Source of the DNA: a virus
DNA: 24,227 nt
Reading direction: 5' to 3' (one strand)
IMG/VR virus record: IMGVR_UViG_3300032299_000968
Span: 1 to 24,227 of that record
The notes beneath the pieces were generated by a model. It was not told where the DNA came from, did not search any database, and was given only the letters and a program-made list of their open reading frames with translations. Below, piece after piece: positions 1,877 to 18,949 of this stretch (positions are counted from its first letter, which is position 1; the number at the start of each line of letters is the position of its first letter). The translations under genes were made by a program, and so were the position numbers.

Positions 1877-2457
1877 TAATTTCCATATTTTCGTAGCGTA
1901 GAAAGTATATCATCAAATTCTTTACGTGTCACTAAAAACCCATACTGTATTACGCATCTATCTTCAGAGTCTAGTATTATATCTGTTCTATGAGAAGATA
2001 TCGATGCAGGAAAACACCAAGCATCTCCAGTATTGACATTAATTTCTTCATCTTCAATAATTGGATTATACCCCTGTCCCTCACCACGCTTTAACATCAG
2101 ATTAAATCTGAAATTTATAAAGTCATCTACACTTTCGTATGGCCATTTCGTATCTCTATGTACATGAATGTTACCTCCACTCGATATTACACTATATAAA
2201 ATTCCAAGATAATGATCGACTCTAGGCAATTTAATACCTAGAGTCTCTGCAATCTTAAAATAATATTTCAAATGTATATCAGAAAAGTGGTCTGTTTCAT
2301 CTAATCGTAAATATTTTCTATTTACTGTTCCACCTGCAATGTTTTCTGCAAAAAATGAATCTTTATCACGTATATCATTAAGAAAAATGTCAATGTCTTT
2401 TACATCGACAAAATTCTTTATGACTTTATATGACTTATGGTGTTGACTCAACAGCAT
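1873..2457 (-). CDS. 2-oxoglutarate/Fe(II)-dependent oxygenase-like protein
   Basis: A 194-residue protein with the signs of a double-stranded beta-helix dioxygenase. The sequence around residues 97-102 (IHVHRD) supplies the H-x-D iron ligands (His100, Asp102). GDAWCFPASISSHR (144-157) supplies the distal ligand His156. Arg167 in EDRCVIQYGF is placed to bind the 2-oxoglutarate carboxylate. Such enzymes hydroxylate amino acid side chains, sugars, lipids or nucleobases, and nothing here fixes the substrate. It overlaps the carbamoyltransferase by 23 bases, so translation is probably coupled. Only AAGAAAG lies immediately upstream of the ATG. It is the last gene of the minus-strand cassette, and its stop overlaps the stop of the opposing HAD gene. 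A role in modifying the same sugar or adhesin as its neighbours is inference. Confidence 0.72.
   Translation of the reverse strand: MLLSQHHKSYKVIKNFVDVKDIDIFLNDIRDKDSFFAENIAGGTVNRKYLRLDETDHFSDIHLKYYFKIAETLGIKLPRVDHYLGILYSVISSGGNIHVHRDTKWPYESVDDFINFRFNLMLKRGEGQGYNPIIEDEEINVNTGDAWCFPASISSHRTDIILDSEDRCVIQYGFLVTRKEFDDILSTLRKYGNY
2218..2245. repeat. Perfect 9-bp inverted repeat inside the oxygenase gene
   Basis: GACTCTAGG (2218-2226) and CCTAGAGTC (2237-2245) are exact reverse complements around a 10-base AT-only-but-one loop. It is the most stable simple hairpin I noticed in the window. Neither strand has a run of T after it, so it is not a standard intrinsic terminator. It could be an RNA processing or stability element, or chance. 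Confidence 0.5.
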
Positions 2458-4195
2458 CTTTCTTGATAATCAACTTATTCAATTCTGGAACATAAAGATA
2501 TTTCAACTGTGATCGGAGAAGAGTAGTCTTTGCATCTTCTAAAGTATCTACCAATGGATCACCAGCCAAGTTAAAGCTAGTATTGAACAAAATCGGAACA
2601 CCAGTAATGTTATCGAATTCTTTAATCAATTCATAGTAATGTTCATTCTGCTCACTTGTTACTGTCTGAATTCTGCATGTTGCATCGACATGCGTTATCG
2701 ATGGAATAGTACCAAGTTTGTCTGATAGAACATCAACAGCATACATCATGAATGGCGATTCTTCAAGATTTCTCATGTCAAACCATTCATTTGCTTTTTC
2801 TTTCAAACAAGAACCAGCGAAAGGTCTGAACCATTCTCTACCCTTAACTACGTTAACGATATCTTTTCCGTTTTGAACTCTTGGGTCAAATAGGATAGAA
2901 CGATTACCAAGCGCACGTGGACCACCTTCTGCACGACCATTAAACAAACTGACAATGTTCTCTTCTGAAATTAACTTTGCAATATCTTTTTTAGATGCAT
3001 CTGTAATTTCAAATTCATCTTCATCAAAAATACTTAAATCGTAATCTGGTTCAGTTCCCAAATACAATGTAGTTAGTGGATCTTTTTCATAAAAGTCCTC
3101 TACTTCAGTTGAAACTTCTTCATCTACTGGTTTACTTGCATATTGATTCATGTACCACATCATTTTTGCGGCACCAATAGTGCTACCACCATCATGTGAA
3201 ATAGGATCAACAAAAATATTTAAATGCGGAAATCTCTCAAGATAAAAGTAATTCGCAACACAATTTAGTCCATAGCCACCAGAAATAACAATATTCTTGT
3301 TACCAGACAACTCATAGGATTTTTCGATCAAACGTGCAATTGCTTCTTGGGAATCGTTTTGAATTTTCCAAGCAACGTCTTTATCAAACTGCGTTACTTT
3401 TGTAGGATCGTTATGCCAATCATTTGCTGTATCTCGATCTTTAAGAAATTCTTTATTCATAACGGAGTCAATATATGCGCCAGCTGGATAAGAAGGAAGA
3501 AATACTTTTCTATTTCCTCTGTTACTTTCATCGATTAACTCTGGCACAGAGTCATTTTTATTTCCGTAAGAAGAAAGCCCCATAGTTTTGCCAGCTTCAA
3601 TGAATCCAAATCCCAAATAATAAGTCACAGCTTCATATGCTTTTACAACAGTGACTGCATTTGATGTAGTGACCATATTGTTTTTAAATGATATAGCATC
3701 ATTTGTTCCAAAGTTTTTGTGTATGACTTTAAAGTTATTTGGATATGAACATTCGAAAATAGTTTCTGCTTCAAATCCTGATGGCAAACCTTCAATATTA
3801 AAATAAGAACCTGAACCGTCAACGATGAGTGCCGTTGCAGTATCGAAGCCCGAATTGTAAAATGCAGAAGCCGCATGAAGCATATGATGCTGTGATCCAA
3901 GATTCATAGTACTGAATTTCAAATCAGGACCTTGAATTTTTCTCAGATAACATGTGTATGGATCTTCTCCAGTCCATGGCATTTTTTGATTTGCCTCTTG
4001 TGGCTGTGTTCCACAAATAATCAATTCATTGATGATGTACTTTCTTGCAAAATATTCAATTGCACGAAATGGATTACCATCATATTTCATTCTAGTAATT
4101 CGCTCTTCTTCTATGTAACCCACCAACTTGCCGTCTGAAACTAATGCAGCCGCACCGTTGTGTCCTGGATTAATAGCTAAAATATTATATGTCAT
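2435..4195 (-). CDS. O-carbamoyltransferase (NodU/CmcH/TobZ family)
   Basis: A 586-residue, full-length member of the family that activates carbamoyl phosphate to carbamoyl-adenylate and transfers the carbamoyl group to a hydroxyl, usually on a sugar. The N-terminal Kae1/TsaD-like domain has INPGHNGAAAL (8-18, His12), SQHHMLHAASAFY (101-113, the His cluster), VDGSGSY (125-131), GLSSYG (206-211) and SGGYGLNC (305-312). The YrdC-like C-terminal domain has AEGGPRALGNRS (422-433), REWFRPFA (453-460) and LFNTSFNLAGDP (536-547). All motifs I would expect are present, so it should be active. The start has GGAGA about 8 bases upstream. It lies 17 bases after the glycosyltransferase gene and overlaps the oxygenase. 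NodU, CmcH and TobZ act on Nod factor, cephalosporin and tobramycin. The substrate here is unknown, and a heptose or other glycan is the likeliest guess. Confidence 0.9.
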   Translation of the reverse strand: MTYNILAINPGHNGAAALVSDGKLVGYIEEERITRMKYDGNPFRAIEYFARKYIINELIICGTQPQEANQKMPWTGEDPYTCYLRKIQGPDLKFSTMNLGSQHHMLHAASAFYNSGFDTATALIVDGSGSYFNIEGLPSGFEAETIFECSYPNNFKVIHKNFGTNDAISFKNNMVTTSNAVTVVKAYEAVTYYLGFGFIEAGKTMGLSSYGNKNDSVPELIDESNRGNRKVFLPSYPAGAYIDSVMNKEFLKDRDTANDWHNDPTKVTQFDKDVAWKIQNDSQEAIARLIEKSYELSGNKNIVISGGYGLNCVANYFYLERFPHLNIFVDPISHDGGSTIGAAKMMWYMNQYASKPVDEEVSTEVEDFYEKDPLTTLYLGTEPDYDLSIFDEDEFEITDASKKDIAKLISEENIVSLFNGRAEGGPRALGNRSILFDPRVQNGKDIVNVVKGREWFRPFAGSCLKEKANEWFDMRNLEESPFMMYAVDVLSDKLGTIPSITHVDATCRIQTVTSEQNEHYYELIKEFDNITGVPILFNTSFNLAGDPLVDTLEDAKTTLLRSQLKYLYVPELNKLIIKKDAVESTP

Positions 4196-4212: not shown

Positions 4213-5142
4213 TTATGTGTTCTTTTCAATATCTTTTTCAATCATTGTATATAGTTCATTAATTTCTTTATCATCTAACTCCATACATCTATCGTTAAGT
4301 CTATCTGCTAAATTGCAATCAAGTCCAGCAATACGAATTGGTGAATATACTTTAGGATAATCTTTTTTCTCAAAGATGTTAAAGAAATCTGGATATGTCG
4401 TGTTCTTTGCAAACGTTGAACCGATTATAACAGTTCCAGGTTTATTGAATGCTCTTGCCATATGTTGACCAACAGAGTCACATCCAATAAAATAATCACT
4501 ATTTTCAATAACGGCAGCCCAACCTCTTAAGTCAGATTCTAATTTAAATGTGTACGTATCTTCAGGTTGTGCCATATGACGCTCACCAAAGAAAATTAAA
4601 TTATATTTTACTGCCAATTTTTTAACTAAAGAAATATATGCCTTAGGCTCTAAACTTCTTGATGAGTCATCAATGATATCAGCTTTATCAAGTCTTGCAG
4701 AACGTCCATAAGGTTGAATAACAATTGTTTTTGTTTTTTGTTGTTGCGCTTTTACATCGGCAACAATATTTGCGCCCATTTTTTCTTCAGCCTTCATCAA
4801 GTAAAGTTTAGGCGCACCCAAATCTGAATGATCGTTAGTTCGATTGATTTCTTCATCGAATGCTTCAGCTAGTGAAATTTCTTGATTGAAGTAGTTAGGC
4901 AGAATATATGGTTCTGGTTTAATAACACGATGTGCATTTTTTACAGTATTCTCAAACACGCCTTTGGTGTCCATATTATATGTAATGTTCTGGAGAACTG
5001 AATTTCCCCAAACTAAATTGTCCCAACCACCAATAAGAATTTTTACATCTTCATCTGGATGTAATCTTATGTATTTTTCTAGTGCGGGGATTGATGCGAT
5101 GATACGGCCTGCTCCGCCGTCAATTAAGAACACAGTTTTCAT
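4213..5142 (-). CDS. Glycosyltransferase family 9-like (heptosyltransferase fold)
   Basis: A 309-residue protein built as a GT-B enzyme. The N-terminus has FLIDGGAGRIIASIPAL (5-21), matching the glycine-rich acceptor-side loop of family 9 enzymes (GxGD...xPAL), though the usual Asp is Arg here. The C-terminal half has DYFIGCDSVGQHMARAF followed by NKPGTVIIGS (216-242), the family signature DSxxxHxAxAxxKPxVxIxG at the nucleotide-sugar site. LIFFGE (182-187) is the strand before it. Family 9 includes the WaaC/WaaF/WaaQ heptosyltransferases. Donor and acceptor cannot be read from sequence. The start is supported by AAAGGG about 8 bases upstream. It follows the cupin gene by 33 bases and precedes the carbamoyltransferase by 17. 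That fits a sugar-decoration cassette acting in the cytoplasm on host LPS precursor or on virion protein. Confidence 0.72.
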   Translation of the reverse strand: MKTVFLIDGGAGRIIASIPALEKYIRLHPDEDVKILIGGWDNLVWGNSVLQNITYNMDTKGVFENTVKNAHRVIKPEPYILPNYFNQEISLAEAFDEEINRTNDHSDLGAPKLYLMKAEEKMGANIVADVKAQQQKTKTIVIQPYGRSARLDKADIIDDSSRSLEPKAYISLVKKLAVKYNLIFFGERHMAQPEDTYTFKLESDLRGWAAVIENSDYFIGCDSVGQHMARAFNKPGTVIIGSTFAKNTTYPDFFNIFEKKDYPKVYSPIRIAGLDCNLADRLNDRCMELDDKEINELYTMIEKDIEKNT

Positions 5143-5175: not shown

Positions 5176-5685
5176 TCAGCTATTTTTCGTTTCTAATATA
5201 GTTTTTTCTCTTAACAGTTCTAACATTGCATCAGACGCATCAAACGTTTGTGCGTTAAACTTCTCATGTGATTTATTGCTTGGATCATTCACAGCCCCAA
5301 CAATTTCTTCATCATCAACAACTTCTCCTAACGGATTTCGTATAGCAAAGACACAATACCAAACAGTATCATCTTCTTTAGCTATAACAAGATGTTCAAC
5401 ATCTTTTCTGATAACTATGAAAGTTGGTGCGTGAAAGATTTTTTCTTCTTCTCCAGGTATTTGCACAGAAACAGAGCCACGAACTAACAATGACACATGG
5501 TCAAAGTAATGTTTGTGGCCCTCTATATGGTCACCTGATTTTTCAAAAGAATGTTGTCTAACCCAAATGTTACCAAAATACCCCAACTCTTCTTGCTTTG
5601 CTGTTGTTGTATTTTGGTGCCCTTTGTCTTTCCCATCATCCAAAATCATTGCAATATTTTTCACACTCGACATATTATACATCAT
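5176..5685 (-). CDS. Small single-domain cupin protein
   Basis: A 169-residue beta-barrel protein. Cupin motif 1 is recognisable as GDHIEGHKHYFDHVSLLVRG (51-70), with metal ligands His57 and His59. The usual glutamate is replaced by Asp62 or His63. Motif 2 is FHAPTFIVIRKDVEHLV (84-100), with His98 as the last ligand. Similar short cupins occur beside fibre and sugar genes in T4-like marine phages. Functions of the fold include sugar isomerases and epimerases, dioxygenases and ligand binding, and nothing fixes one here. Start choice is uncertain. AAAGG abuts the first ATG (5685), is 3 bases from a second ATG (5682) and 12 from a third (5673, MSSVKN). One of the later two may be used. It begins 13 bases after the Cys-rich adhesin gene, so it is probably co-expressed with it. 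Confidence 0.7.
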   Translation of the reverse strand: MMYNMSSVKNIAMILDDGKDKGHQNTTTAKQEELGYFGNIWVRQHSFEKSGDHIEGHKHYFDHVSLLVRGSVSVQIPGEEEKIFHAPTFIVIRKDVEHLVIAKEDDTVWYCVFAIRNPLGEVVDDEEIVGAVNDPSNKSHEKFNAQTFDASDAMLELLREKTILETKNS

Positions 5686-5698
5686 CCTTTATTAAAAA

Positions 5699-7594
5699 TC
5701 AATAGTAAACTATAACTAAACCGTCACCGCCAGAAGCATTTGGTGAGCCACCAGACAATGAACCACCGCCACCGTTTCCTGGTCGACCAGAAGTTGATGC
5801 ACCAGCCAAAACTCCGCTTGGTCCACTCAAACCACCAGCACCAGGTCCAGCATCTTCTAAGAAGCAGAAACCGGCGTCAATGAACTGTCTAGCACCAAAT
5901 CCTTTAATTTCTTCTGGGAAGAACCACTGTGTGCTTGATAATGGTCTAGGATTAATTTCCATTTGGTTAAGTGATGATCCGCAGACGCCTGCAGCCGGAT
6001 TCTGCGATCTATAGTGTATAGTATCGCCAATTGTATTGTATCCAGATCGACATCCCTGTGCAACGTTACAAGAACAGTAACAACCATCTGGTATAGAACA
6101 GCTTCCTGGAATTGCAGAACCACCGATATTGACTCCACCTACACCACCGATGCCAGGCCCACCTGTTACACATCCACAGAAACACTGGCAACTAACCGGA
6201 CAACAGTTCATAATTGGTACACAAAAGATACCAACACAAATAGGGCTACACAAGCAACCACAGCCGCCTGCGGAACTGGTTTGTGCGGCTACAGTAGTTG
6301 AAAGTCCATTTCCGTAATAATTTCCTGCACTTGCTCCAGGAACAACGCCAACACTTCCACATGAAATCGAAATACTATTAATAGTACAATAATTAAAACA
6401 ATTTATACAAAAGAAATAATAGTCGTGACACACGGGAAGTGCATTTGACACATGAAATGTACAGCATATACATCCTGAGATAGCAAATTTGCAATAGCTA
6501 AAAGATACATCTGGACCAGTGGGTGGGATTCCACCACAATTGTTAATTGTTCCTCCAATTCCACATCCACCACTGGCTGTCTGTCTTACGAATCCATGTA
6601 TGAATCCTGGAGTATTTTGAGAAAACTGATTCGCACAGGATGCATATCCGTTACAATCGGACGCCGCAACGCCACAGGCAGTAATACATGGTGCACTAAA
6701 ACAACAGCAAATACAAGTACTTCCAGCACCAAAGGTGCTTGATGAAGCGGTTGCCGAAGGGCAACAATATCTAACTTTGTGTGTGCCGAATGAACAGTTA
6801 CATGAATTCGCATTTCTAACACATGCGATACAATCGCCAATAGGAGGATAGAATAAACCATCAATATACCACTTTAAGCATTGAGTCAGTGTAGCTGCCG
6901 ATGCACCGCCTGTTGCTGATATGCAAGAACCAAAAGAAGAAGTGCATCCTTGTGAGCCAACGCAAACAGTATATGCTTGACCTGGAGTTACAGGGAATGA
7001 AGCATCTGCGTATCCTGCGCCTGCGCCGCCCTGGACAAATACTTGAGGACCCATTGACATGCCGCACGTAGTGAAAGTACAGCACTGAGGCACATTCGTA
7101 CAGTTACAGCAATTACTTGCCGCACTACAAGAAAAGTCGCAGTTAGACCATTTAAAACATAAGAACTTACAACCGCAACTATTGTCTTGATACCACTGAA
7201 AGCACAATCCACCGCATCCAAAATATCTGGTACATGCTTGGCAAGCGCAACATCCCTGAACAAAGAGGCCGCAAGCCTTTCCATCAATTATACAACAAGT
7301 TGCGCTTTGTGGACAAATATTCTGTCTTAGCTGAAAACAGCAAGTTGCACATTCAAATGACATAAAGCTAACGGCACAACAATTTGTATGTAAGACGCCT
7401 GAGTCATTTGCTTGAAAGTTTCCAGGAGTAAACCCTCTGCCTATCGCAGGTCCACCGCCTCCGACAACTACAGCACGAACGCACGACACACCAGAAGGCG
7501 TGTTCCACGTATACGCTCCAGTATCTTCATACTGTTGTTTATTTCTAAATGCTATACCTTGTGATTGTATAGGTGATGTTACAAAACGTCCCAT
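5699..7594 (-). CDS. Cysteine- and glycine-rich tail fibre/adhesin-like protein
   Basis: A 631-residue protein with the framework of glycine-rich phage adhesins. The opening is GAYTWNTPSGVSCVRAVVVG followed by GGG (26-47). A second glycine-rich strand is VQGGAGAGYAD...VTPGQAYTVCVG (187-213). The C-terminus is rich in short Gly runs (582-625) and ends SGGDGLVIVYY. Set into this framework is an extreme cysteine content, about 74 by my count (near 12%). Residues 72-177 alone hold about 26, many as CC, CxC or CxxC. No known metal-binding fold repeats regularly enough to name. There is no signal peptide or membrane segment. The start has AAAGGAT just upstream, 14 bases after the preceding small gene. 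Its place after the fibre genes suggests receptor contact or adhesin tip, with the cysteines forming disulfides or holding metal. The molecular role is inferred. Confidence 0.7.
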   Translation of the reverse strand: MGRFVTSPIQSQGIAFRNKQQYEDTGAYTWNTPSGVSCVRAVVVGGGGPAIGRGFTPGNFQANDSGVLHTNCCAVSFMSFECATCCFQLRQNICPQSATCCIIDGKACGLFVQGCCACQACTRYFGCGGLCFQWYQDNSCGCKFLCFKWSNCDFSCSAASNCCNCTNVPQCCTFTTCGMSMGPQVFVQGGAGAGYADASFPVTPGQAYTVCVGSQGCTSSFGSCISATGGASAATLTQCLKWYIDGLFYPPIGDCIACVRNANSCNCSFGTHKVRYCCPSATASSSTFGAGSTCICCCFSAPCITACGVAASDCNGYASCANQFSQNTPGFIHGFVRQTASGGCGIGGTINNCGGIPPTGPDVSFSYCKFAISGCICCTFHVSNALPVCHDYYFFCINCFNYCTINSISISCGSVGVVPGASAGNYYGNGLSTTVAAQTSSAGGCGCLCSPICVGIFCVPIMNCCPVSCQCFCGCVTGGPGIGGVGGVNIGGSAIPGSCSIPDGCYCSCNVAQGCRSGYNTIGDTIHYRSQNPAAGVCGSSLNQMEINPRPLSSTQWFFPEEIKGFGARQFIDAGFCFLEDAGPGAGGLSGPSGVLAGASTSGRPGNGGGGSLSGGSPNASGGDGLVIVYY

Positions 7595-7608
7595 TTTTTA
7601 TCCTTTTA

Positions 7609-8225: not shown

Positions 8226-9668
8226 TCAGAAATTTGCGTAAAAATATAATTTTGCGGCAGATACGCCACCACCAGCAGATTCCCATCCTGTCGATTTATA
8301 AACTTCAAGTCGTTGTAGCGTTGTGTCGTATCGAATCATACCTACTGTTGCATAGCCAGCACGTTCACCAGTAGTTCCAGCTGGAATCTTCAATGCGCCT
8401 GTGCTTGTGAATGATACGTTTCCGGATGCTGTCAGAGCGCCTGTTGATATAGCAGTTGATGTAATTGTTCCGCTTACATCCAACTTGCTTGATGGCGAAC
8501 TTGTACCAATACCTACATTGCCTGAACCGTCAATGACTAATCTGTCTGATACACCTGCTTCAATAATCTTAAATAAACCTGACGTTCCAGTATTTTCAAT
8601 TGCCCAAGTTCTAACTCCTGTTTGAACTAATTTAATATTTGAAAACCCTGCTGAAGCAGATGTGATGTCCAACTTAGCAGTAGGAGAGTTTGTTCCAATG
8701 CCTAAATTTGTTCCGTCAAAACTTAATACAGAGCCAGTAGCCAATGCACTAGAACTAGATGCGTACACCACACCATTGGCAGTGAAGGAGGTTAAGCCTG
8801 TGCCGCCATAAGCTGTACCGATTGTAGTGCCTTGCCAAACACCTGTTCCGATTGTTCCAACTGAAGTCAATGAAGAATTAGTTACACCTGAACCAAGGGT
8901 TGTAGAAGATAAAACATCGGTAGCATTAATCTTATACGTCTGTCCAGTTCCAATGTTGATACTGTTGGCAGCAGTAAGTCCGCCAATAGCTAAGTTTGCC
9001 CATGCAAATCCGTTAGCCGAAACGTCAATTGTGGTACTTGGTTCAGCACTATAATTCCTAAACAATTTCCACGTATCGTCCGTAGCATCTCTGAAAAGAC
9101 CAGAGTGTACATTTGCACCATTATTATATCCACCGATAAAACCAATGTCAACAAGATCAGATGGATTTAAGTGCGACAACTGTAAAATGTTATCTTCAAT
9201 ATTGAGTACGGTTGTGCTAATTAATGTGTTAGAACCCAAAAACGAAACGTTTCCAGTAAAAACTGAATTGCCAAGAACGTTTAAGTCTGTTCCAACATAT
9301 AGTTTTTTAGCAATACCAACACCACCAGCAACTTTAAATGTGCCTGTAGTAGAAGAACTTGCGTCTGTAATTCCACCAAGCGTCAGAATATCTGTTGCTG
9401 TGTCGTATGTGAGTGCAGAATCATCCGTTAACTGGCCTGAGGTAGTAGCAAGCGTGACTCTACCAGTAGTTAAATTAGTTGCAGTTACTGTATTAGCAGT
9501 TAATGTGTTAGCAGTTACTGTATTAGCAGTTAATGTGTTAGCAGTTACTGTAGTTGCGCTAATAACGCCCGAAGTGCTAACTACCGAATTAACAGCATTT
9601 GCGGTATCATTAAACGCATTTCTGAACTGACCAAACGTGTCGCTTAAGAGTACTTGTGAAATAGGCAT
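8226..9668 (-). CDS. Tail fibre protein with trimeric-fibre repeats
   Basis: A 480-residue fibre-like protein. It begins with a short phage-attachment-type segment (MPISQVLLSDTFGQFRNAFN). Low-complexity repeats TANTLTANTV follow (about residues 39-63). Beta-rich fibre modules come next, including GTFKVAGGVGIAKKLYVG and NVLGNSVFTGNVSF, then an internal domain with LFRDATDDTWKLFRNYS. The last part has two LGIGTNSPTAKLDIT / VGIGTSSPSSKLDVS motifs, common in trimeric shaft proteins. It ends MIRYDTTLQRLEVYKSTGWE plus a short tail, without the S74 endosialidase chaperone domain that often follows such modules. Composition is Thr/Ser/Ala/Gly-rich with no cysteine. AGAGAG lies upstream of the start, 2 bases after the 83-residue gene. 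It should be a structural fibre or fibre-base protein reaching outwards from the baseplate. Confidence 0.8.
   Translation of the reverse strand: MPISQVLLSDTFGQFRNAFNDTANAVNSVVSTSGVISATTVTANTLTANTVTANTLTANTVTATNLTTGRVTLATTSGQLTDDSALTYDTATDILTLGGITDASSSTTGTFKVAGGVGIAKKLYVGTDLNVLGNSVFTGNVSFLGSNTLISTTVLNIEDNILQLSHLNPSDLVDIGFIGGYNNGANVHSGLFRDATDDTWKLFRNYSAEPSTTIDVSANGFAWANLAIGGLTAANSINIGTGQTYKINATDVLSSTTLGSGVTNSSLTSVGTIGTGVWQGTTIGTAYGGTGLTSFTANGVVYASSSSALATGSVLSFDGTNLGIGTNSPTAKLDITSASAGFSNIKLVQTGVRTWAIENTGTSGLFKIIEAGVSDRLVIDGSGNVGIGTSSPSSKLDVSGTITSTAISTGALTASGNVSFTSTGALKIPAGTTGERAGYATVGMIRYDTTLQRLEVYKSTGWESAGGGVSAAKLYFYANF
9481..9552 (-). repeat. In-frame 30-bp tandem repeat in the tail fibre gene
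   Basis: Two exact 30-base copies (9481-9510 and 9511-9540) and a third partial copy (9541-9552). Each copy is made of two near-identical 15-base halves. The unit is 10 codons and encodes a TANTLTANTV repeat, so gain or loss of a unit keeps the frame and would change shaft length. Confidence 0.9.
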
Positions 9669-17494: not shown

Positions 17495-18949
17495 TTAATA
17501 CCCGAATCTAGTTTTGTATGTTGCGTGTTCTGCTTGAATTTCTGCTAAAGTTAATTCTTTGTTCCAGACTTTGACAAATCCAATATCTGCATCAACTTGT
17601 TCACTACTAGTAGTTGAATTTACAAATCTACCAAATAATCTCAATCCATTAAATCCATTGTTTGTTGCGCCGGTACCGTATGTTCCGCTTGGGGCTGTGC
17701 TAGTAGCTATATAACTTTTGGCTTTGCTTGCACCAGCAGATCCAGTATTAGTAAACCATATAAAGTGCCAAGCAGTATCTGCGGTATCGGCAGAACTACC
17801 AACAAAAGCATCACCGTAAGCAATATTCATTTTACATCCAGCCGAACCCCATAGACCCATTAAAAAGTCAGGACTTGCTGTATTAGCATTTAACAATCTA
17901 CCGCCAAGAGTTCCATTCCACTTATATGCCATACCCACAGTAAATGCTTGTGCGCTACCGTAGTTTGGACCAAAAGTCAAAAAGTTATCAGTAGATGCTG
18001 TTGTCACTCTAAACACACCACCGTTTACACTATTCCAACTAATTCTAGGTGTAGGATTAATTATGGTTATAGGATAATTTCCAGTTGCATCTGTTATAGC
18101 AGTAAATGGTGTCGCCGCATTATATGTTACAGTACCATTATTTGTAACAGTAAGTGGTGCAGTACTGTAATCAGTTAACAATGTTCCACTATCTTGTGGT
18201 CGTATTAACAATACTGTATTAGTGATTGGGGATAGAGGTTGCGTTGTTGGAGTAAAGTTTGCAGTATAAACTGCTGTTCCTTTAACTATTCTAAAGTTGC
18301 TTATACGACCATTAAAATAATTATTGCCTTGAGCCGCACTATATCCAATATCAAGTGATCTATTTGATGTACTATTAAATCCTATGCCACTTTGAGACAT
18401 TACAGAAACTCCGTTGACATAAAGTGTAATAGTTCCGCTTGCTCTTACTAATGCAATATGATGCCAGGTTCCTACAGTTATTACTGTATTAGTAGCACTA
18501 CTGCTTGTACCGCTCACACCAAAGTAGTAAATACCTCCATTGCCATTAAGATCCACATTGTCAGAGTCGGAACTAAAAAACCACAAACGTCCAGAAAGAC
18601 TATTAGGATATATCCAAGTCTCTATAGTAAAATCGTTTGTTCCGAAAGCAAATGCAGAACTTGAGGCGATTGAAAGATACTGACTGCTACCATTTAAATT
18701 AAAGCTACCATTAATAGTGGGCATTGACGTAAAATTAGCCGCATCAAAGTCTAATACCAAATTTGCTGACGGAACTGACGTATCATTTACTGTAATTGTA
18801 TTGCTAGTAGCAACGATTGGTCCTGCAATAGAACCTGTTCTAATTGAAACAGTAAATGTCTCTGCACCTTCTGTTGTTAAGTCTGCGGTTGGGTTTACAA
18901 CAAATGACCCCGCATTGTTTGTTATTGTGAATGAACCATTGGCTGGCAT
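17495..18949 (-). CDS. LamG/lectin-like baseplate-linked protein with partial Calx-beta domain
   Basis: A 484-residue beta-rich protein. Residues 1-58 (NGSFTITNNAGSFVV, then TTEGAETFTVSIR and ITVNDTS) are the second half of a Calx-beta-like domain. Its first half is at the end of the gene just upstream. Residues about 80-290 form a LamG/concanavalin-type domain: GSSQYLSIASSSAFAFG, DFTIETWIYP, WHHIALVRASGTITLYVNG, ISNFRIVKGTAVYTANFTP. Residues about 300-484 form a second one: FTVGMAYKWNG, AWHFIWFTN, DIGFVKVWNKELTLAEI. Such domains bind glycans and often sit at phage tips. It may be a host-contact module of the gp7-like protein. The ATG overlaps the preceding stop (TAATG) and AGGAG lies 10 bases upstream, so separate translation is possible. 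A frameshifted single gene of about 1500 codons is the alternative. Confidence 0.72.
   Translation of the reverse strand: MPANGSFTITNNAGSFVVNPTADLTTEGAETFTVSIRTGSIAGPIVATSNTITVNDTSVPSANLVLDFDAANFTSMPTINGSFNLNGSSQYLSIASSSAFAFGTNDFTIETWIYPNSLSGRLWFFSSDSDNVDLNGNGGIYYFGVSGTSSSATNTVITVGTWHHIALVRASGTITLYVNGVSVMSQSGIGFNSTSNRSLDIGYSAAQGNNYFNGRISNFRIVKGTAVYTANFTPTTQPLSPITNTVLLIRPQDSGTLLTDYSTAPLTVTNNGTVTYNAATPFTAITDATGNYPITIINPTPRISWNSVNGGVFRVTTASTDNFLTFGPNYGSAQAFTVGMAYKWNGTLGGRLLNANTASPDFLMGLWGSAGCKMNIAYGDAFVGSSADTADTAWHFIWFTNTGSAGASKAKSYIATSTAPSGTYGTGATNNGFNGLRLFGRFVNSTTSSEQVDADIGFVKVWNKELTLAEIQAEHATYKTRFGY

Follow-up and report, generated by a model that had tools for sequence, protein, structure and literature searches.

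Cysteine is normally scarce in the structural proteins of phages, and a gene in a tail fiber region whose product has 74 cysteines in 631 residues (11.7%) raises the question of what such a protein does and why its cysteines are kept. The stretch of DNA analyzed here, referred to as the window, is a complete viral record of 24,227 bases. The cysteine-rich gene occupies positions 5699..7594 on the minus strand, is read from an ATG at 7594 down to 5699 and is preceded, 7 bases upstream of that ATG, by an AAGGA resembling a ribosome-binding site (7601..7605, minus strand; found by inspection of the sequence). Its product has 97 glycines (15.4% overall), and all the other main open reading frames (ORFs) of the window have 0–1.2% cysteine. 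The original prediction had described a gene at 5699-7594 for an adhesin, adjacent to a 480-residue fiber without cysteine, that has about 74 cysteines in 631 residues, with about 26 located from residue 72 to residue 177. The coordinates were correct, with the gene on the minus strand; exactly 74 and 26 cysteines were counted, and the adjacent fiber (8226..9668, minus strand), which lies within the upstream fiber block, has zero. A spurious reading frame was considered and rejected, as the plus strand is full of stops, the homologous frame is kept in relatives (L006, L026, L037, and L184-L187) and dN/dS values were 0.13–0.43.

The cysteine codons TGT and TGC are used in a ratio of 50:24. The motifs CC, CxC, CxxC, and CxxxC occur 11, 14, 8, and 13 times, respectively, and the first three had been singled out as frequent in the original prediction. 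They are present, but at spacings of 1–3 there was no excess over the expectation from local cysteine density (z between -1.1 and 1.0), and we rejected a special CC/CxC spacing in this protein; as the local density predicts such spacing, the frequency of these motifs adds no information.

Product names in the window were inferred from comparison with cyanophage gene order and from weak profile matches. On this basis, the window holds a T4-like baseplate and tail fiber block, followed by genes for a cupin, a T4-GC302-like protein, a carbamoyltransferase, an oxygenase-like protein, and a neck-like protein, and a similar gene order was found in cyanophages S-SSM7, S-CAM1, S-CAM3, P-SSM2, and Sf-FS3. 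The T4-GC302/phrog_8954-family neighbor (309 residues; 4213..5142, minus strand) served as the marker of cysteine-rich loci, and the carbamoyltransferase of T4-GC303 type (2435..4195, minus strand), whose sequence was compared with the cyanophage order, is next in the conserved gene order. Directly downstream of the cysteine-rich gene is a gene for a cupin-like protein of 169 residues (5176-5685, minus strand), a name that is unsafe because comparable small cyanophage proteins have been named cysteine dioxygenase, cupin, or nucleotidyltransferase.

The structure model of the cysteine-rich protein was confident only in residues about 18–53, 187–234, and 618–631, which we refer to as framework strands. 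The first set, YTWNTPSGVSCVRAVVVGGGG (7436..7543, minus strand; residues 18–53), has one cysteine and a pLDDT mostly of about 87–96, and aligns with WTVPSGV...WGAGG of proteins of the S-SSM7 type and with TWNKPSGVKYIKVQVCGGGG of Syn9 gp38. The second, GGAGAGYADASFPVTPGQAYTVCVGS (6893..7036, minus strand; residues 187–234), has three cysteines, a pLDDT mostly of 88–95, and a GAGGG(F/Y)xEK motif conserved among the relatives. The C-terminal strand (5702..5743, minus strand; residues 618–631), ending in SGGDGLVIVYY, is kept by all relatives, and the final 10-residue blocks of the model had a pLDDT of 90–92. Between the first two sets is a first loop insert of 133 residues with 26 cysteines (7037..7435, minus strand; residues 54–186), which is far shorter in relatives L006 and L184-L187. 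The remaining loops (5744..6892, minus strand; residues 235–617) hold 44 cysteines and glycine-rich motifs, of which GSGGDINxCG and GGGGAG are conserved in relatives. Structure prediction, to which the original prediction had looked for paired cysteines or metal clusters, thus gave confident framework strands but loops of low confidence (pLDDT mostly 23–45). The framework strands contain 4 cysteines in 99 residues and the remainder contains 70 in 532, which bears out the earlier suggestion that the cysteine-bearing segments are inserted into a conserved framework, between its strands.

A fold search with the protein's own model gave no significant match, and for this reason its fold assignment rests on framework homology. 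We used a sister family of the S-SSM7 type, whose members have about 260 residues and usually lie three in tandem at each locus. Among viral contigs, 245 relatives were confirmed and 80 loci retained. AlphaFold2 on 63 sister-family sequences produced a model with a pLDDT of 76.9 and a pTM of 0.75. Its best match among solved structures was the fiber of cyanophage Pam3 (Foldseek E 7.8e-8; 199 residues aligned with Z 16.6 and rmsd 6.3), with further matches to the tail tip of Bxb1 (Z 12.2) and, in ALK/LTK, to glycine-rich extracellular domains (Z 8–9.7). By hhalign, the window family aligned with the sister family over 76 columns (probability 95%) and with Syn9 gp38 over 122 columns (probability 96.6%), and on these profile alignments the window protein appears to share the TNF-like/glycine-rich framework. 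Sequence searches against solved structures returned nothing useful. The window protein scored 14.4 bits against Pfam Gly_rich_2 (PF21722), and relatives in L004 and S-CAM3 scored 18.8 and 19.3, all below the curated cut-off of 24.3; it matched neither phrog_4205 nor phrog_35878 at E<=1.

The Pam3 tail fiber gp24 (PDB 7ypx/7yfw) shares with the sister family the fold of a TNF-like plus a glycine-rich domain, variable distal loops, and a probable role in the tail fiber. In Pam3 this unit is the distal, host-recognizing end of the fiber, with sequence diversity rising toward the tip (PMC9608196). Compared with the window protein, gp24 differs in its attachment region and in composition: the glycine-rich domain of gp24 is 39% glycine, whereas the window protein is 15% glycine and 12% cysteine. 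Cysteine goes unmentioned in the text of the Pam3 paper (PMC9608196). A reading in which the protein stays out of the virion and acts within the cell, for example as a fiber chaperone or a metal or redox buffer, is in keeping with the annotation of some cysteine-poor Syn9-type relatives as 'tail fiber assembly' and with T4 gp38 and Pam3 gp25 being assembly chaperones not found in virions (PMC9608196). However, the fold matched was that of gp24, which was detected in Pam3 virions, and not that of the chaperone gp25 (PMC9608196), and the loops are hypervariable between phages, as those of adhesins would be; we consider an intracellular role quite unlikely. The tail fiber locus and the framework shared with relatives support the adhesin-type assignment made originally.

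Relatives were sought via the neighboring genes because direct searches had failed: isolated phages gave no tblastn match to the whole adhesin or to its C-terminus, and scanning viral contigs with the single protein was equally fruitless, probably due to the odd composition of the adhesin. For the GC302 neighbor, 80 loci were fetched, of which 57 were distinct and 47 had at least 3 kb upstream. In 33 of these 47, as in the window, a protein of at least 5% cysteine is encoded just upstream of the GC302 gene, an association that is partly built in because sampling began from GC302. In the other 14, most of which are more divergent, the proteins reached at most 0.4–4.8% cysteine. In the isolated and single-cell phage collection, each record with a detectable cysteine-rich relative was also a GC302 record. 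Elsewhere in the GC302 loci, 3 of 354 ORFs reached 5% cysteine; because of this rarity, and because homologues maintain the trait under purifying selection, the cysteine load of the window adhesin exceeds chance.

The cysteine-rich proteins at this locus include glycine-rich adhesins of the window type, long fibers beginning MPVVRGIRVLNA, fibers beginning MAYKINGTTVVDNSRNVCACC, and others. As several architectures carry it, the trait tracks genome position rather than one sequence family; uncorrected blastp similarities among cysteine-rich proteins, which are chance links, were left out as homology evidence. The isolates S-SSM7, S-CAM1/3, P-SSM2, and Sf-FS3 carry relatives with 8–12% cysteine annotated as 'hypothetical', and those of S-SSM7, S-CAM3, and P-SSM2 match phrog_4205 or phrog_35878, both of unknown function. 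The proteins of these two PHROGs resemble the window adhesin in being glycine-rich, in having 8–12% cysteine, in locus order, and in having a related profile, but they are shorter and their cysteines are more regular. We conclude that many aquatic T4-like phages, including that of the window, probably carry a host-recognition protein with variable tip loops full of conserved cysteines, a trait unusual for phage proteins.

The nearest relatives of the window adhesin (L184-L187, L006, L026, and L037) have 356–418 residues and 9–12% cysteine. They share with it the framework YRxKK..., V(V/F)GGGG, GAGGG(F/Y)xEK, GSGGDINxCG, GGGGAG, and a final GGxGLVVVYY. Most of the cysteines are in the segments that separate these motifs and that differ in both length and sequence. 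Cysteine identity to the window adhesin was 35–61%, compared with 23–33% for other residues. In a sister-family alignment of 114 sequences (less than 93% identical), cysteine made up at least 96% of each of 22 of the 31 cysteine columns and was the best-conserved residue type, with a mean majority-residue frequency of 0.89 (30 columns) compared with 0.79 for glycine and 0.47–0.80 for all others. Paralogs share 87–98% of their cysteines versus 50–69% of other residues, and silent TGT/TGC changes are common at the shared cysteine positions. Values of dN/dS were 0.13–0.18 for the sister family and 0.23–0.43 for the other families tested. Judged from these alignments, selection on cysteine is purifying in the sister family. 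The original prediction had reckoned that scattered, non-conserved cysteines in homologues would count against it; the sister family speaks otherwise, but the window's own immediate family retains the positions only partly, which counts against a disulfide reading.

Pairwise covariation of cysteines, also raised in the original prediction, was observed, partly as mutual exclusion. Sister-family columns 216/246 and 258/261 are never both cysteine, at least one of columns 157/229 always is, and columns 145-261 and 142-258 tend to co-occur. In a tree-based test, two pairs had uncorrected p values of 0.0015 and 0.0035; dozens of column pairs were compared, and significance was lost after multiple-test correction, so that the coupling is suggestive only. 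An even-number rule for cysteine was not supported, with 48 even and 66 odd counts among the 114 sequences.

The main rival of a disulfide reading is metal binding, in which the cysteine clusters would hold Zn, Cu, or Fe, either to support the loops or, as has been proposed for histidine-coordinated iron in other fibers, as a lure for the host's receptors for metal uptake. Metal clusters would likewise be compatible with the CCC and dense CxC/CxxC motifs and with near-invariant clusters of cysteines such as ACSCNRC and CWIRCGCW, and HxH iron-binding motifs have been described in marine phage fibers (PMC11705849). On the other hand, lost cysteines are replaced mainly by the non-ligand residues G, N, L, Y, W, or M and less often by His, Asp, or Glu; the window adhesin has just six histidines and no HxH motif was found in its sequence; and its cysteine spacing matches chance at the local density. 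Metal binding seems to us rather unlikely.

The cysteine-poor Syn9 type offered a natural control. Syn9 gp38 and its relatives were found in 20 cyanophage records, and the gp38/gp39 type (annotated 'tail fiber assembly') has the framework of the window adhesin (TWNKPSGV, GGYSEK, GSGGDLN, GIVIV), with tandem copies ending a fiber block in several phages. The versions opened had 0.4–2.2% cysteine and 21–25% glycine, in contrast to 8–12% and 14–18% in the cysteine-rich isolates. Since these versions share the framework, its fold does not need cysteine, and the cysteine load is an added, maintained property. At the sensitivity used, there was no overlap between phages with the two versions. Unlike the window adhesin, the Syn9 type is followed by tryptophan halogenases and 2OG oxygenases and not by GC302 and the carbamoyltransferase; in the four cysteine-poor loci opened besides Syn9, tryptophan halogenases follow, with 2OG oxygenases in two of the four stretches. 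Across the loci, tryptophan halogenases and often 2OG-Fe(II) oxygenases come after the cysteine-poor adhesins (L188 and L192-L195), and GC302, carbamoyltransferase, and heptose genes come after the cysteine-rich ones (L094-L096, L100, and L196). Adhesin type and modifying-enzyme set thus seem to travel together.

The reading that we favor, and to which we give a somewhat better than even chance, is that the gene encodes a tail fiber tip adhesin of a T4-like (Kyanoviridae-like) phage, with hypervariable loops that are held in place by disulfides arising after release. Such an adhesin would be built on the framework known from the Pam3 fiber, the strands of which would carry the cysteine-filled loops that form the distal tip of the virion's fiber and bind the receptor. 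The cysteines would be reduced during synthesis in the host cytoplasm; after lysis, as the virion meets oxic water, many disulfides would form and make a rigid tip of the long variable loops, a task for which other phages rely on more polyglycine. We prefer disulfides formed after release because of the selection on cysteine, the position coupling, the non-ligand replacements, and the location of the cysteines in loops and not framework, and because no DsbA or thioredoxin was matched in the seven phage records searched, which also led us to reject phage-borne oxidative folding by either enzyme. Conservation, mutually exclusive positions, and the missing DsbA and thioredoxin genes fit disulfide formation after release but are not proof of it. 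Glutaredoxins, present in five of the seven records and not tied to the adhesin gene, were the sole thiol enzymes found. Free thiols at the tip could instead react, or undergo disulfide exchange, with proteins of the host surface and so make attachment covalent or redox-triggered; this would agree with the cysteines being mainly in presumed distal loops and with the recurrence of the trait in other fiber architectures at the same locus. Yet dozens of conserved cysteines far exceed the need of such a step, and the glutaredoxins are unlinked to the gene; we regard thiol attachment as very unlikely. None of the tests run here pointed to the redox switch that had originally been offered as an option.

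To our knowledge, very few phages have been described whose virions contain large disulfide networks. The virion of Agrobacterium phage Milano has a functional network of many disulfides, as proposed here, but its structural proteins have 2.1% cysteine and the disulfides secure the sheath and the baseplate instead of adhesin loops (PMC10811340). The T2/S16/PP01 gp38 adhesin (6F45) sits on the fiber tip and, like the window adhesin, alternates glycine motifs with hypervariable loops, but it is a polyglycine sandwich of more than 50% glycine on a beta-helix. It was absent among the fold matches listed, although the two may be related. The adhesin framework is already known; in the public data searched, only hypothetical proteins represent its cysteine-rich version. 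We found no description of cysteine-rich cyanophage adhesins in the open-access literature, to which the search was confined, and the word cysteine is absent from a 16-genome cyanophage comparison. The cysteine-rich version is widespread and apparently undescribed.

We tentatively suggest, as a possibility that falls short of probable, a separate receptor-binding class in aquatic T4-like phages, with about 10% conserved cysteine in host-facing loops, in several fiber architectures at one locus position, and alternating with a cysteine-poor, polyglycine-rich version. It would amount to a disulfide-knob display, put together in the reduced state within the cell and hardening once outside, and the cysteine-rich knobs of ultralong bovine antibody loops are an analogy in principle. 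If true, adhesins of 8–12% cysteine would raise the testable question of how they fold in a reducing cytoplasm and whether release into oxic water belongs to virion maturation, and would offer a way into unnamed proteins, probably receptor-binding ones, of the cultured cyanophages P-SSM2 and S-SSM7.

Several other proteins were observed in these loci. Long fibers of 1,100–1,400 residues without the glycine-rich framework pattern occupy the same locus position and have about 10–13% cysteine (L003:9739-13929, L015:5298-9473, L041:5359-8781, and L067:5026-8454), and CC pairs are in excess in the pooled long fibers (z 4.6). The highest cysteine content seen, 16.5% (43 in 261 residues), was in a truncated ORF, L031:3-785. 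In more distant GC302 loci (L070, L073, L075, and L089-L090) there are fibers with RCC1-like repeats (VWGxNxxGQLG) and a modestly raised cysteine content of about 4–6%. Phages of Vibrio and Aeromonas, about 78 kb in size and far from T4-like phages, have distant homologues of GC302, at about 25% identity. Inside the baseplate block of the window, a 484-residue protein (17495-18949, minus strand) has a laminin-G/ConA-like lectin domain (Pfam E 3e-26) and resembles parts of very large phage structural proteins.
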